Positions 2,843-32,555 of a DNA stretch of 64,000 bases are shown piece after piece. Below the pieces are notes generated by a model, which was not told the DNA's origin, made no database searches, and was given only the letters and a program-made list of their open reading frames with translations. The DNA is from Saccharibacillus sacchari DSM 19268 (GTDB taxonomy: Bacteria > Bacillota > Bacilli > Paenibacillales > Paenibacillaceae): contig NZ_KK073875.1 in the NCBI RefSeq assembly GCF_000585395.1, positions 5,508,274 through 5,572,273 of the forward strand. The letters run 5' to 3'. How positions within the stretch are numbered: the stretch's first letter is position 1; the number at the start of each line of letters is the position of its first letter. A program made the position numbers and the translations under genes.

Positions 2843-2986
2843 AAAAGAAAGCTAAAGGCTGCGGGGAAAATTCGTTCAAGACGCTGTCTCACTCGGAAAG
2901 CTGAATGAAGTTTGTAGGTGAAGCTTTCCGAGTTCAAAGGCGTCTTTTTCTGAATTTTCCCCTTCGCCTGTTTGCTTAATTTCTTG
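2843..2986 (+). repeat. Nested-hairpin repeat, copy A
   Basis: The outer arms pair GGGGAAAATTC (2863-2873) with GAATTTTCCCC (2952-2962); the inner arms pair ACTCGGAAAGCT (2891-2902) with AGCTTTCCGAGT (2922-2933). Between the arms are motifs TTCGTTCAA..CGCTGTCTC and TTCAAAGGCG, shared with the copy at 32287-32555 although the paired arms differ. TTCAAAGGCG also occurs in the copies at 15251 and 28477 (opposite orientation). It fills the gap between two convergent genes. Confidence 0.8.
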
Positions 2987-11953: not shown

Positions 11954-12565
11954 TCATTCCTTTTTGCGTTTACGCGTGCTCTCGCTATCCGCATCGCTCA
12001 AATATTCGCCTTTCGCGACCTCCGTCCAACGCATTAGCTCATCCCGCACCTTCCGGCGAAGTTCCGCGTTAGGCGGTGCAAGCCGAAATAACTCGGCGTA
12101 CCACAACCCATCCACCGCCAAACGCAGAATCGTCGCCTTCACCGGATCAACGCCGTCGTTTTCGAGCAGTTTTTGCCATTCTTCGTATTGCACGCGTACC
12201 TGATCTAGCAGTTTCGGATCGGTGAACATCGCAGCCGGAAATGCAGCCAGCATATGGCTCCACTCCAACTCCTCTTCCGTCCCAAACGTCGCCCTAACAT
12301 ACGCCCTGCCCCATTTTCCCGCCTGATCGCCTTCCGATTCCGCTTCCCTGTTGAGCTGTACCGTAAAGCCGGTTGTCAGCGATTCGACCAACCCTTCGAT
12401 CAACTCCTGTTTGCCGGGAAAATGGTATAGCAATCCGCCTTTGCTGACACCTGCCTTTTTCGCCACTGCTTCAAGCGTCATCTTTTCCACGCCTTGCTCG
12501 TTGATCACGGCAGCAGCCGCTTCAAGAATCAGTTCTTTTTTTGAATTCTTGTTGGGTTTCTTCAT
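11954..12565 (-). CDS. TetR-family regulator of the SMR efflux pair
   Basis: A 203-residue repressor. The helix-turn-helix is at residues 10-55 (KELILEAAAAVINEQGVEKMT, VAKKAGVSKGGLLYHFPGKQEL), and the C-terminal half is of the TetR_C_37-like ligand type (WSHMLAAFPAAMF, ILRLAVDGLWYAELF). It is the third gene after the two SMR genes on the same strand, with short gaps, so it is probably autoregulated from the promoter at 13352-13381, whose spacer carries a perfect 14-bp dyad. The ligand is probably a hydrophobic cation, as in QacR-like systems; this is inference. Confidence 0.88.
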   Translation of the reverse strand: MKKPNKNSKKELILEAAAAVINEQGVEKMTLEAVAKKAGVSKGGLLYHFPGKQELIEGLVESLTTGFTVQLNREAESEGDQAGKWGRAYVRATFGTEEELEWSHMLAAFPAAMFTDPKLLDQVRVQYEEWQKLLENDGVDPVKATILRLAVDGLWYAELFRLAPPNAELRRKVRDELMRWTEVAKGEYLSDADSESTRKRKKE

Positions 12566-12596
12566 GACTCATCACCGTCCCTATCGCATACTCCCA

Positions 12597-12965
12597 TTAT
12601 ACGATTGCGCGGGACGCTCTGTCAGCCGTATCCTCTTTGCCCGATCCCGATGAAAAATTCAAGAACACCACCCCGCCGATGATCAACATCAAGCCCAACG
12701 CACTCAGCAAGCTGAAATCTTCTTTCCATAGCACGACCCCGACTACCGCCGTCAATGCTGTTCCCACGCCTGCCCAGATCGCATAAGCCAAACTCAGCGG
12801 CAAGTGGCGCAGCGTCATCGTCAAGAAGAAAAACGCGCTTCCCATTCCAATGATGAAAAAGAGAGCCGGAATCAAATTCGTAAACCCCTCCGTCAACTTC
12901 AACATGGTCGTCCCGAATACTTCAAACATAATCGCCAAGCTCAAAAACAAATAGCCCTTCTTCAT
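12597..12965 (-). CDS. Small multidrug resistance efflux subunit
   Basis: A 122-residue, four-helix SMR protein that exports cations by proton antiport. The membrane-embedded Glu is in IMFEVFGTTMLKL, and the helix-3 motif AYAIWAGVGTALTAVVG and the C-terminal IIGGVVFLNF helix are present. It has a longer polar tail (SSGSGKEDTADRASRAIV) than the usual 105-110 residues. It follows the other SMR gene after 18 bp; paired SMR genes of the EbrAB/YkkCD kind work as heterodimers. AGGAGG precedes the ATG. Confidence 0.9.
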   Translation of the reverse strand: MKKGYLFLSLAIMFEVFGTTMLKLTEGFTNLIPALFFIIGMGSAFFFLTMTLRHLPLSLAYAIWAGVGTALTAVVGVVLWKEDFSLLSALGLMLIIGGVVFLNFSSGSGKEDTADRASRAIV

Positions 12966-12983
12966 CTCCGCTTCGCCTCCTTT

Positions 12984-13304
12984 TTAGTTCGTAGCCAACT
13001 TCATGATCACAACGCCGCTGACAATGAGCATAATGCCCAGCGCTTTTTTGGCATTGATTTTTTCCTTATAAAGCAGTACGCCGACAAACGTCGTCAATAC
13101 CGTTCCCACGCCGGACCAGATCGCATAAGCCGTCCCCAGCGGTATCGTGTGCAGCGCAATCGACAGCATATAAAAGGACAAGCCCATCCCCGCAACCATC
13201 GCTATCGAAGGAGCCAGCCGCTTGAATCCGTTGGACAACTTCATCATCGAGCTGCCGAATACTTCAGACACAATCGCCACAGCCAAAAATACGTAAGCGT
13301 TCAA
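12984..13304 (-). CDS. Small multidrug resistance efflux subunit, TTG start
   Basis: A 106-residue SMR protein with four helices; the essential Glu lies in AIVSEVFGSSMMKL, the helix-3 signature is AYAIWSGVGTVLTTFVG, and the C-terminus is LGIMLIVSGVVIMKLATN. The start is TTG at 13302-13304, because GGAGG lies seven bases upstream and this gives the family length; an ATG at 13343 in frame would add 13 atypical charged residues and leave the ribosome site inside the gene. It is the first gene of the operon SMR-SMR-tetR. Confidence 0.88.
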   Translation of the reverse strand: MNAYVFLAVAIVSEVFGSSMMKLSNGFKRLAPSIAMVAGMGLSFYMLSIALHTIPLGTAYAIWSGVGTVLTTFVGVLLYKEKINAKKALGIMLIVSGVVIMKLATN

Positions 13305-13351
13305 TTCAGCACCTCCATTTTTATAAACAATTTTCTTTTTCAATTCAATTT

Positions 13352-13381
13352 AGTATACCGTCTGGACGGTTAACTTTTCAA
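13352..13381 (-). promoter_or_regulatory. Promoter and TetR operator of the SMR operon
   Basis: On the minus strand: TTGAAA, an 18-bp spacer, TATACT. The spacer carries a perfect dyad ACCGTCCAGACGGT (13357-13370), overlapping the -10 edge, where a bound TetR protein would block RNA polymerase. Confidence 0.75.
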
Positions 13382-13394
13382 GCCTAATTTATGA

Positions 13395-13436
13395 TTAAAA
13401 AAGTCGGAACCGAAGCTTTGCGCCTCAGATCCGACT
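13395..13436 (-). terminator. Terminator of the VOC-protein gene
   Basis: AGTCGGA (13402-13408) pairs with TCCGACT (13430-13436), followed by TTTTTT on the minus strand. Confidence 0.8.
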
Positions 13437-13490
13437 GGGTGACTCTTATTCAGTTTATTCGTTGATGTACATTGTCTGTTTGCATTTCCA

Positions 13491-13525
13491 CTTGTCTCTT
13501 ATCAACGCTAAAAGTAGGATTACGG
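13491..13525 (-). mobile_element. Fragment of the 110-bp palindromic element
   Basis: ATCAACGCTAAAAGTA.GGATTACG matches the right end of the copy at 1230-1339 read on its opposite strand, including the TCAAC terminal repeat. The sequence diverges after 13525, so only about a third of the element remains. It lies 18 bp after the VOC-protein stop. Confidence 0.65.
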
Positions 13526-13542
13526 GTTGCTAAGGGACTTAT

Positions 13543-14034
13543 TCAAAACGAATGCTGCGTCACCGTAAACTGAAATACCACGCCGAAAGGATCACGCACG
13601 ATGCCGTAACCGCTGCTGAATGAATTTGCGGTCAACGGAACCAATACCGTCGTCCGTTCATCCGAGGTTAATTGCTCATACAGATCTACAATCGTGTCAT
13701 GATCGCGGGATTGCAGACAAAGCGAAAAGTCGTTCCCTGCACTCCACGCTCTCGTCGTATCCATCTCTTCTTCCGCGATCATGATCTTATTGGCGCCGAT
13801 TTGCAGCACGGAATGCGTGATCCAATCCTCTTGGCCTGCCGCATGCTTGAAACTCTCGTCCCGCTTCGCCATATCCGCATAGCTGACCTTGAGCAGCACC
13901 GCCGCGCCCAGCTTTCGTTCGTAAAATTCGATAGCCTCCGCGGCCTGCCCATGGAGCGAAAGAAAAGGAATTACCTCCGCCTGCATCTCTGCCGCCTTTT
14001 TCGCTTGATCTTGGTTTTCGCTCGTATTCATCAT
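13543..14034 (-). CDS. VOC superfamily protein, PhnB-like
   Basis: A 163-residue protein of the glyoxalase/VOC fold, PhnB branch. Seen: a VIPFLSLHGQAAEAIEFYERKLGA start strand-helix, HSVLQIGANKIMIAEE in the first module, LCLQSRDHDTIVDLYEQL and SSGYGIVRDPFGVVFQFTV in the second. Family members bind metals or antibiotics or act as epimerases; nothing here decides which. GGAGG lies six bases before the first of two ATGs. It is divergent from the WYL regulator 138 bp away, which may control it. Confidence 0.85.
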   Translation of the reverse strand: MMNTSENQDQAKKAAEMQAEVIPFLSLHGQAAEAIEFYERKLGAAVLLKVSYADMAKRDESFKHAAGQEDWITHSVLQIGANKIMIAEEEMDTTRAWSAGNDFSLCLQSRDHDTIVDLYEQLTSDERTTVLVPLTANSFSSGYGIVRDPFGVVFQFTVTQHSF

Positions 14035-15250: not shown

Positions 15251-15368
15251 GAAAAAGTAAAAGAGCAGAGGAAGGTTGTGTGTAGGAGCGGAGCATTCGC
15301 CTTTGAACTGGGGAAGCTTCAACACGCGACCGAAACACAACCTCCCGGCGCTCTCCAAACTTTTTCCC
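15251..15368 (-). repeat. Nested-hairpin repeat, copy B
   Basis: The outer arms pair GGAAGGTTGTGT with ACACAACCTCC and continue towards GAAAAAGT / ACTTTTTCC. The conserved unpaired motifs GTAGGAGCG.AGC.TTCGCC, TTTGAA and TTCAACACGCGACCGAAA flank a short inner stem. It shares these motifs with the copy at 28477-28645, whose arms are different but also self-complementary. Confidence 0.8.
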
Positions 15369-28476: not shown

Positions 28477-28645
28477 TATTCCCTTGAAAAACATAGGAAG
28501 GGAGGTGTGGAGTCGTGTAGGAGCGAAGCGTTCGCCTTTGAAAATGGGAAAACCCCTTATTAGAGTTCAATCAAAGTTTCCCATTTTCAACACGCGACCG
28601 AAACGACTCCACTCCGCACGCCCGCCCATGATTTCCCAAGGGACG
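28477..28645 (-). repeat. Nested-hairpin repeat, copy C
   Basis: The outer arms pair GGAGTCGT (28509-28516) with ACGACTCC (28603-28610); the inner arms pair AAAATGGGAAA with TTTCCCATTTT. The conserved segments GTGTAGGAGCGAAGCG, TTCGCCTTTGAA and CAACACGCGACCGAAA are nearly identical to copy B, while both pairs of arms differ in sequence. Confidence 0.85.
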
Positions 28646-28659
28646 CGACTTTAAAAGTT

Positions 28660-29484
28660 TTATTTTACCGACCCGACCATTCCAGCAACAAAGTGCTTCT
28701 GCATCAAGAAGAACACCAGTGCCGTCGGAACCGTCGAGATGACGATCGCCATCATAATCATGCCGTAGTCCGGCGCGTAGCCCGAACCCAGGTTCGAGAT
28801 CAACAGCGGAATCGTCTGGTTCTCAGGCGATTGCAGAATAACGAGCGGCCACATGTAGTTGTTCCAGCTCGACATGAACGTGATGATCGCGGCTGCCGCG
28901 TACGTCGTTTTCATCGTCGGCAGATAAATGCGGAAGAACAATCCCAGCTCCGACAATCCGTCCATCCGGCCTGCTTCCAGCAGTTCGCGCGGGAACATCT
29001 TGGTACTTTGCCGGAAGAAGAAGATCAGGAACGCCGTGGTGAACGTCGGGATGACGACCGCCGCAGGCGTATCGATCCCGAACGTCGGGAAGAAATTCGT
29101 GATTTTACCGAACATCCGGTACAGCGGTACCATCAAGGCTGCGAACGGAATCATCATCGACAGCAGCAGGATCGAGAAGACGATGTCTTTCGCTTTGCTG
29201 CGATAGATTTCGAAGCCGTAACCGGCCAGCGACGCGATCAGCATCGCCAGAATCGTCGTCGTGATCGAGATCTTGGCCGAGTTGCCCATGGCATTCCAGA
29301 TATCGACGCTGGCGGTCAAGTTGCGCAGGTTATCGAGCAGATGCGAACCCGGAATCAGACGCCCTTGCGTAACGTCGACCGATTTGTTCGTGGCGCTGAC
29401 GATCATCCAGAAGAACGGGAAGATCGACACGAACGCCGCGAGGCTGAGGAACAGATACATGGAGGCTCTTTTCGCCTTAAGCAT
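28660..29484 (-). CDS. Carbohydrate ABC transporter permease (MalG/GanQ type)
   Basis: A 274-residue permease with six hydrophobic helices. The EAA-loop region reads LLEAGRMDGLSELGLFFRIYLPTMK, and the C-terminus ends MQKHFVAGMVGSVK as in carbohydrate-uptake-1 family subunits. The start ATG at 29484 follows AGGTGA by five bases; an upstream in-frame GTG at 29493 is less likely. It overlaps the end of the partner permease gene. Confidence 0.92.
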   Translation of the reverse strand: MLKAKRASMYLFLSLAAFVSIFPFFWMIVSATNKSVDVTQGRLIPGSHLLDNLRNLTASVDIWNAMGNSAKISITTTILAMLIASLAGYGFEIYRSKAKDIVFSILLLSMMIPFAALMVPLYRMFGKITNFFPTFGIDTPAAVVIPTFTTAFLIFFFRQSTKMFPRELLEAGRMDGLSELGLFFRIYLPTMKTTYAAAAIITFMSSWNNYMWPLVILQSPENQTIPLLISNLGSGYAPDYGMIMMAIVISTVPTALVFFLMQKHFVAGMVGSVK

Positions 29485-30412
29485 TTCGATCACCTGCCAC
29501 TTTGAATTGGATGAACGACAGAATAATAATCATGATTACGATGGAATACGACACGGTTGCCGCATAGCCGAAGTCGGCCGAATATTCGAACGACAGATTG
29601 TAGATGTACTGCGAAATGGTGGTCGTCGCGTTACCCGGACCGCCCTTCGTGATGTTCATGACTTCGTCGAACAACTGGAGCGTACCGATCGTGGACGTGA
29701 TCGACGTGAACAGGATGATCGGTTTCAACAACGGAATCGTAATGCTGAAGAACTGGCGAATCGCCGAAGCACCATCGATCCGGGCTGCTTCATAGATCGA
29801 CTGGTCGATATTTTGCAGACCCGACAGATAGAAGATCATGTTGTAACCCGTCCAGCGCCACGTGATCGCGATAATGATCGTGACTTTCGCCCAGAACGGA
29901 TCGGAGATCCACTGAATCGGCGCGTTGATGATATGAATATTCATCAGCATGGAGTTGACCAGACCGTCCGGCGCGAACAGGTACTTGAAGACGATCGAGT
30001 ACGCAACGAGCGACGTGATCGCCGGCAGGAAGATCGCGGTCCGGAAAAATCCTTTGAACTTCAGATTCCGGTCGTTCAGCAGTACCGAGAAGAACATCGC
30101 CAGGATGATCATGATCGGAACTTGGAACAGCAGATAGATAAAGGTGTTGGTAACGGCGGTCAGGAACATTTTATCCGTAAACAGCCGCTGGTAGTTACCG
30201 AGGCCGTTAAATTTCATATTGATACCCGTTCCCGTCTGGAACGACAGGATCAAGGCCTGGATCATCGGATAGAAGTAAAAGGCAGCGATCAGGATTACGG
30301 CTGCGGCCACGAAGAGCCAGCCGACCAGTCCGCTCTTGAAACGACGACTGCGGCTTGATTGAAACGTATTGCTGTTTTTGCCCGGACCGGCTGCGGTATT
30401 TGCGGTCTTCAT
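29477..30412 (-). CDS. Carbohydrate ABC transporter permease (MalF/GanP type)
   Basis: A 311-residue permease with a basic N-terminus and six helices; the EAA loop reads YEAARIDGASAIRQFFSITIPLLKPI. It forms the membrane channel with the MalG-type protein. AGGAGG is eight bases before the ATG. It is separated from the upstream binding-protein gene by 295 bp holding a long hairpin. No dedicated ATPase is present; a shared MsmK-type ATPase elsewhere is usual for this class. Confidence 0.92.
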   Translation of the reverse strand: MKTANTAAGPGKNSNTFQSSRSRRFKSGLVGWLFVAAAVILIAAFYFYPMIQALILSFQTGTGINMKFNGLGNYQRLFTDKMFLTAVTNTFIYLLFQVPIMIILAMFFSVLLNDRNLKFKGFFRTAIFLPAITSLVAYSIVFKYLFAPDGLVNSMLMNIHIINAPIQWISDPFWAKVTIIIAITWRWTGYNMIFYLSGLQNIDQSIYEAARIDGASAIRQFFSITIPLLKPIILFTSITSTIGTLQLFDEVMNITKGGPGNATTTISQYIYNLSFEYSADFGYAATVSYSIVIMIIILSFIQFKVAGDRNA

Positions 30413-32286: not shown

Positions 32287-32555
32287 AAGAGAGCATAAGC
32301 TCTCTTCGGGCTGTCGAGAAAGTGGCTTCGGCGCGAGAAGCGAGAAGACTGCGAAAGAAATTCGTTCAATCCGCTGTCTCACTTGGAAAACTAGAATTAA
32401 ATTTGATAGGGGTTTTCCAAGTTCAAAGGCGTCAACATATCGCTGAATGTTACCGCAGGCTTTCTTCGAAATCCTGTATTTCACTGAATTTCTCTCTCCG
32501 TCTTCTCGCTACGTTGGACTTTCTCAAATACGTAGAAGAGAGCATAGGCTCTCTT
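32287..32555 (+). repeat. Compound nested-hairpin repeat, copy D
   Basis: A core (32361-32433) with TTCGTTCAA..CGCTGTCTCACT, an inner stem GGAAAAC / GTTTTCC and AGTTCAAAGGCG matches copy A. It is framed by further inverted segments (GCGAGAAGAC / GTCTTCTCGC; GAGAAAGT / ACTTTCTC) and, at both ends, by GAGAGCATA.GCTCTC hairpins. The right end touches the kinase stop codon. Confidence 0.75.

Follow-up and report, generated by a model that had tools for sequence, protein, structure and literature searches.

As judged from sequence comparison, the four repeats of the 64,000-nucleotide stretch that we analysed (the window) are members of a family of small, mobile, high-copy DNA elements folding as nested hairpins, and the family is a widespread miniature transposable element that keeps its shape rather than the sequence of its stems. 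We scanned the 6.08-Mb window genome with motifs of the two element types. With up to two mismatches, the type-A motif TTCAACACGCGACCGAAA gave 89 matches and the type-B motif TTCGTTCAANNCGCTGTCTCACT gave 180, and the reversed patterns of both types gave none genome-wide in the same scan. A covariance model of type B (R1) matched at least 150 places. The window genome holds well over 200 copies in total, not the four of the original prediction. Within the window, TTCAACACGCGACCGAAA occurred twice with no mismatch, where 0.09 occurrences were expected with up to three mismatches. It is the longer motifs that exceed chance there, unlike CGCTGTCTCACT alone (two mismatches; 3 found versus 4.7 expected) or TTCAAAGGCG (one mismatch; 11 found versus 7.6 expected), neither of which was above chance in the window.

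The elements are about 120–200 bp long. Two subtypes had been proposed; we found the conserved segments of each, and types A and B share one common plan: an outer (P1), a short (P2) and an inner stem (P3), separated by fixed segments. The conserved segments were recovered at all four window places, both by the motifs and by covariance models R1 and R2 (type A). Copy 1 was among the 32 training rows of R1; copies 2 to 4 were non-training rows. The four copies are composed as follows.

2843..2986, plus strand: copy 1, type B, subfamily 2, no IS1182-type ends seen; core 2851-2972, R1 130.6 bits.
15251..15368, minus strand: copy 2, type A, inner hairpin without one arm and loop; core 15259-15359, R2 61.9 bits.
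28477..28645, minus strand: copy 3, type A at an old insertion site; core 28494-28627, R2 105.8 bits.
32287..32306, no strand: left target duplication of copy 4, a host terminator hairpin AAGAGAGCATAAGCTCTCTT; it folds as a hairpin and is directly repeated at 32536-32555 (score 17).
32309..32323, plus strand: copy 4, left end GGCTGTCGAGAAAGT, as in IS1182-family insertion sequences, by comparison with the end consensus.
32341..32506, plus strand: copy 4, type B core and an extra 3' hairpin module; R1 69 bits (32341-32464), R2 62.3 bits (32341-32506).
32520..32529, minus strand: copy 4, right end, decayed, TTTCTCAAAT versus TTTCTCGACA by sequence.
32536..32555, no strand: copy 4, right target duplication AAGAGAGCATAGGCTCTCTT, then the terminator T run; direct repeat and hairpin fold.

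Copy 1 starts 13 bases 3' of the stop of frame 2018-2830, and an element also stands at the matching place in a sister strain (G015). Both stems had been said to pair in every copy. This fails for copy 2, whose inner hairpin is reduced to TTGAA/TTCAA and which is broken by a further element in G015. In copy 4, the outermost "stem" is host DNA: the duplicated terminator target pairs because it is a palindrome. Among nine genomes viewed, the copy 4 site was occupied only in the window genome and in G015, which has type A there instead of type B. At this place, G002 carries an extended series of short, related repeats (L123, ~12120-13840), for example AATAAGTGCGAGAACGCACTTATTTTCG. The copy 3 site is occupied in seven other Saccharibacillus species, whose elements keep the segments but have other stems; the element has lost an end in G007 and is absent from G013, and G001, G004, G005, G009 and G011 have other hairpins there. 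Three MITE-poor species (L125, L126 and L128, 3' of the gene matching window 28660-29493) have a hairpin AAGGGTCGGATAT...ATATCCGACCCTT in common at the copy 3 place. In L125, it sits within a nested hairpin (R2 47 bits).

We compared two syntenic 400-kb stretches of the window genome and G015. An element was present at the matching G015 place for 17 of the 24 window-genome elements with flank anchors, and at the matching window-genome place for 17 of the 19 anchored G015 elements; anchors were lacking for 5 of 29 and 8 of 27 elements, respectively. Among the 17 shared window-genome rows, the alignment shows 270516 to be a different insertion, located elsewhere and in the opposite orientation, and the three rows at 229600-229922 form a single rearranged cluster. 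The clearest empty site corresponds to G015 327199: the window genome has a single terminator, and G015 has an element between two terminator copies. Direct repeats scoring at least 12 flanked 15 of 110 copies (94 from the window genome and 16 from G015, a few sites being counted twice because the two sets were pooled) versus 0 of 110 re-paired flanks. Of these 15, 12 had repeats with the expected spacing, of which 8 fold as a simple hairpin. The other 95 copies had no long flank repeat, and we saw no hairpin duplications around copies in G078 and G108. The occupied and empty sites in sister strains, the target-hairpin duplications and the IS1182-type ends on one branch thus bear out the suggestion of a hairpin-DNA mobile element.

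Copies also differ between strains by exchange of whole modules. Type A in one strain corresponds to type B in the other at three shared places, 100614 and 340014 by alignment and 322598 by model scores. At 197969 of the window genome, the inner hairpin is swapped as one unit relative to G015. The copies that we compared, a part of all copies, included no donor for the replaced inner hairpins. The claim that the stems change freely is right for P1 and P3, but in copy 4 the outermost layer belongs to the host, and some strain differences are whole-module exchanges.

The elements lie near the ends of genes. We called genes as long frames and set aside the 7 of 110 elements inside called frames. 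The median distance was 61 bases to gene 3' ends (n=94) versus 122 to 5' ends (n=63). Elements were over-represented between convergent genes (40/103 vs 44/192) and under-represented between divergent genes (9/103 vs 40/192). Closeness to 3' ends and the excess between convergent genes are the context that terminator targeting predicts. Orientation relative to genes showed no bias (25 same, 29 opposite).

One branch of the family shares its ends with an insertion sequence (IS) of the IS1182 family. The window genome has two IS copies of 1,560 bp (L170 and L171), whose transposase is in two frames. Against NF033551 (NCBIfam, IS1182), the second frame scored 287.7 bits, above the cut-off of 270; the first frame, being a part, scored 212 bits, below the cut-off alone. 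The transposase matches PF05598 (DUF772) and PF13751 (DDE_Tnp_1_6) in Pfam, and its nearest named relative is from Saccharibacillus qingshengii (97%), which makes Saccharibacillus the probable genus of the window genome. In both copies, a run of A lies where the two frames meet (L170, ~1291-1312), and we take the two-frame transposase to be a possible candidate for programmed frameshifting. Over 18 bases, the left-end consensus of 42 IS loci is the same as that of 26 elements, TCAGGCTGTCGAGAAAGT, and the window-genome IS copies match it at 17 of 18. L170 and L171 are each flanked by perfect hairpin copies. End motifs lay 1300-1800 bases apart at 50 of 75 loci of Saccharibacillus, Paenibacillus and Cohnella (some are not true IS ends, and L175 and L182 look like one locus); at 26 of the 50, the paired end motifs were between hairpin repeats 15-35 bases long, which were perfect at 25 of these loci. 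Among the 110 element copies, we found the left end motif in 26, the right in 33 and both in 21, versus 1 and 3 in control windows. Subfamily-1 elements thus look like MITEs of an IS1182-family IS, because they have their ends in common with the IS and show the same duplication of a hairpin or terminator target. This pairs an IS that duplicates whole terminators with small elements that share its ends and occupy places of the same type.

IS presence and element copies showed no clear association by genome. Full-length IS relatives are present in the window genome, G002 and G003, one with stops in G012 and a distant one in G010. No relative was found in the four genomes without R1 copies, but none was found in seven genomes with them either. 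It was not found in G015 despite many element copies there, where the draft assembly may lose IS copies. Two further IS1182-family IS were seen: one (453 aa) has long palindromic ends and is flanked by copies of AAAGATCGGGCTTCGGCCCGATCTTT (L172, ~422-1970), and the other (495 aa) has GGATGTCC at both sides (L173).

The family extends well beyond Saccharibacillus. In a survey that scored the best 22 candidates per genome, R2 matched at least 120 of 148 Paenibacillaceae genomes and at least 14 of 19 genera (E <=1e-5). In a survey of 59 genomes that scored the best 60 candidates per genome, R1 matched at least 12, all within Saccharibacillus (12 of 16 of the genus), and none of the 43 genomes outside it (20 of the family, 23 of the order). 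Type A probably came first, with type B derived from it in Saccharibacillus, since R2 is family-wide with shared segments and R1 is restricted to the genus. In 15 genomes of 11 other genera, picked because the R2 survey had already matched them, we counted 1 to 54 copies per genome (E <=1e-6). The other-genus copies written out largely share YTTCCGRTCGCTGTTR 5' of P3 and YAAAGGCGAACGCTnnCGCTYCTnCAG 3' of P3, and their P1 and P3 vary. The repeat had been thought not to belong to a described family, and this agrees with what we found: the core matched no family of Rfam 15 at gathering or permissive thresholds, and the open-licence literature that we searched, like Rfam, held no description of it. 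Some Rfam matches nearby are separate RNAs (T-box, FMN, c-di-AMP, PyrR), and long hairpins also draw weak matches to miRNA and sRNA models. An IS1182-family partner was found for one branch of the family. A repeat without a name is thus present in most Paenibacillaceae genomes sampled, with hundreds of copies in one.

The IS1182-type ends do not extend so far. At 87 element-like places in other genera, the left end was found 4 times and the right end once, versus 3 and 3 in the control. For other genera we therefore have to assume another mover, or ends that can no longer be recognised. We rejected two candidate movers. A Y1 transposase (PF01797) had 0 matches in the window genome, and 5 of 14 control genomes were positive. 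For a gene shared between neighbourhoods in other genera, we compared 79 neighbour frames, open from stop to stop; few pairs were similar and no family recurred.

We measured pairing and covariation in MAFFT alignments that were not fitted to the structure. Alignment A1 took 32 of 40 extracted copies and A2 took 19 of 24, copies with added modules or cut inner hairpins being left out. In A1, 95.8% of cells were paired, with 80 both-side cells; in A2, 96.7%, with 81. The covariation score of A1 and A2 was reached by 0 of 500 shuffles, so the covariation expected of a wider set of copies is significant. When the structure was slid along A1 or A2, pairing dropped to 33-61%. Counts of further pair types were not above shuffles in A1 (23 vs 25.2; 486 of 500 shuffles as high) or in A3 (119 of 500 as high). 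A3, from other genera, was fitted to the model, and among its 44 matches are overlapping loci and three weak matches on the opposite strand; its 37 distinct rows were 94.2% paired, with 403 both-side cells.

Inner stems change almost only between Watson-Crick pairs. G.T and A.C made up 18 and 35 of the 1,237 cells of A3, and the measured stems of Saccharibacillus copies gave 26 and 48, with 244 both-side cells. One-sided wobble was rare, with one such cell in A2. P3 of 13 G078 copies (A4) had no G.T in 195 cells, and P1 there had a few. In single-sequence folds of elements, G.U made up 3.6-6.9% of pairs. The share was 11.5% for T-box leaders (20, from the same genome), 10.2% for tRNAs (16; a small control, of 15-16 tRNAs) and 14.4% for shuffled elements. 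Together with the lack of orientation bias, the Watson-Crick-to-Watson-Crick changes and the scarcity of G.T and G.U point to DNA pairing, that is, to a hairpin kept at the DNA level. A.C mismatches outnumbered G.T about twofold (83 vs 44, p 7e-4), which makes RNA from the opposite strand a possible source. The best-kept part of the elements is the unpaired segments, across genera too. If the DNA reading is true, covariation, usually regarded as proof of RNA structure, can come from DNA folding, and its signature would be Watson-Crick changes without wobble intermediates.

Taken together, these results suggest that the repeats are non-autonomous, MITE-like DNA elements, that IS1182 moves subfamily 1 in trans into terminators, and that folded DNA is what is kept, an explanation that we hold to be fairly probable. 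In Saccharibacillus subfamily 1, an IS1182-family transposase would act in trans on the ends GGCTGTCGAGAAAGT / ACTTTCTCGACA. The element would enter a terminator hairpin and the whole hairpin would be duplicated, so the terminator would survive on both sides. Whenever one arm of the folded strand changed, the other would soon follow, either because the DNA hairpin is under selection or because template switching corrects the palindrome; copies would swap whole modules, and the fixed segments may be a signal read in the folded DNA. IS1182-type ends alone leave these fixed internal segments unexplained. A wider reading, which we put forward tentatively as a plausible minority view, is that of a family-wide mobile class that inherits a folded DNA shape, whose lineages gained different transposase ends around a shape-coded core. 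Some protein would then read the fixed segments in extruded or single-stranded DNA, the stems would drift freely while they stay Watson-Crick, and the Saccharibacillus ends would be those of a terminator-targeting IS1182.

The same folds could belong to a structured RNA (a ribozyme, small RNA or regulatory element) made from strand GTGTAGGAGCG... and spread by transposition, with selection on the RNA keeping helices and segments. Such an RNA would fit with helices that covary and internal segments that stay fixed in 11 genera, and with the added hairpin modules, which resemble peripheral RNA domains; the excess of A.C over G.T would be wobble on the opposite strand. However, G.U pairs are rarer than in T-box leaders and tRNAs, P3 in G078 has no G.T at all, orientation is unbiased, no Rfam family matches, and the site 3 element has been lost in G013 and partly in G007; we consider an RNA unlikely. 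Complementary arms might also persist in a decaying passenger whose shape is not under selection, through template-switch correction of the palindrome and gene conversion. Watson-Crick changes without intermediates, the type A/type B swaps at orthologous places and the inner hairpin swapped as a unit at 197969 are consistent with this, but neutral correction does not predict that unpaired segments are the best kept, even across genera, which makes the passenger improbable. That the host keeps the elements as a device, a bidirectional terminator or a protector of transcript ends, would account for their closeness to gene 3' ends, their excess between convergent genes and the occupation of one site (copy 3) in eight species. 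Yet sister strains differ in which sites are occupied, the host's own terminators persist next to the element, and site 3 is dispensable, so a host device seems very improbable.

In PMC4923244 and PMC5678879, IS1272 (IS1182 family, IS1272 / TnSha1 of staphylococci) is described as targeting hairpins and terminators, with no target duplication and with the stem-loop deleted or replaced. The elements here resemble the IS1182 family so described in their hairpin and terminator targets, and L170, L171 and subfamily-1 elements carry the same end motif; unlike IS1272 in that description, whole hairpins are duplicated here, and unlike IS1182-family IS, the elements have no transposase gene.

Bacterial MITEs are small, non-autonomous and present in many copies with IS-like ends, and their copies usually share sequence. 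The present elements are like MITEs in size, non-autonomy and copy number and, on one branch, in IS-like ends and target duplication; unlike in MITEs, the stems differ, the internal segments are fixed and the ends differ between lineages. ERIC, Correia and BOX repeats are intergenic, palindromic and present in many copies, BOX being modular. Compared by description only, the elements here are likewise intergenic, palindromic and high-copy, and we know of no variable stems around fixed loops in those repeats. Folded DNA hairpins are the signal in REP/RAYT and IS200/IS605-type elements; unlike those systems, the window genome has no Y1 transposase. Integron attC sites are folded DNA of conserved shape and variable sequence in cassette arrays. 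The elements are like attC in their conserved folded shape and unlike attC in being dispersed.

Some copies have other repeats within or beside them. The window genome has inverted pairs of copies about 200-250 bases apart, for example 2381302(+)/2381520(-), 3348590(+)/3348797(-) and 4325471(+)/4325706(-), and L329 (G063:C43:254300-255900) has three copies in a tandem array with a spacing of ~260 bases. A different palindromic repeat (ends AGGGCGTGTCTTCAAACC...) is inserted into family elements at L011 (~1521-1721) and L040 (~1301-1470). At L059 (~1538-1553), the P3 loop contains only a short hairpin, AGGGCGTGTACGCCCT, perhaps a remnant of that repeat. A further insert, with ends TACCTTGACCGC / GCGGTCAAGGTA, breaks an element at its inner hairpin (L161, 12414-12642).
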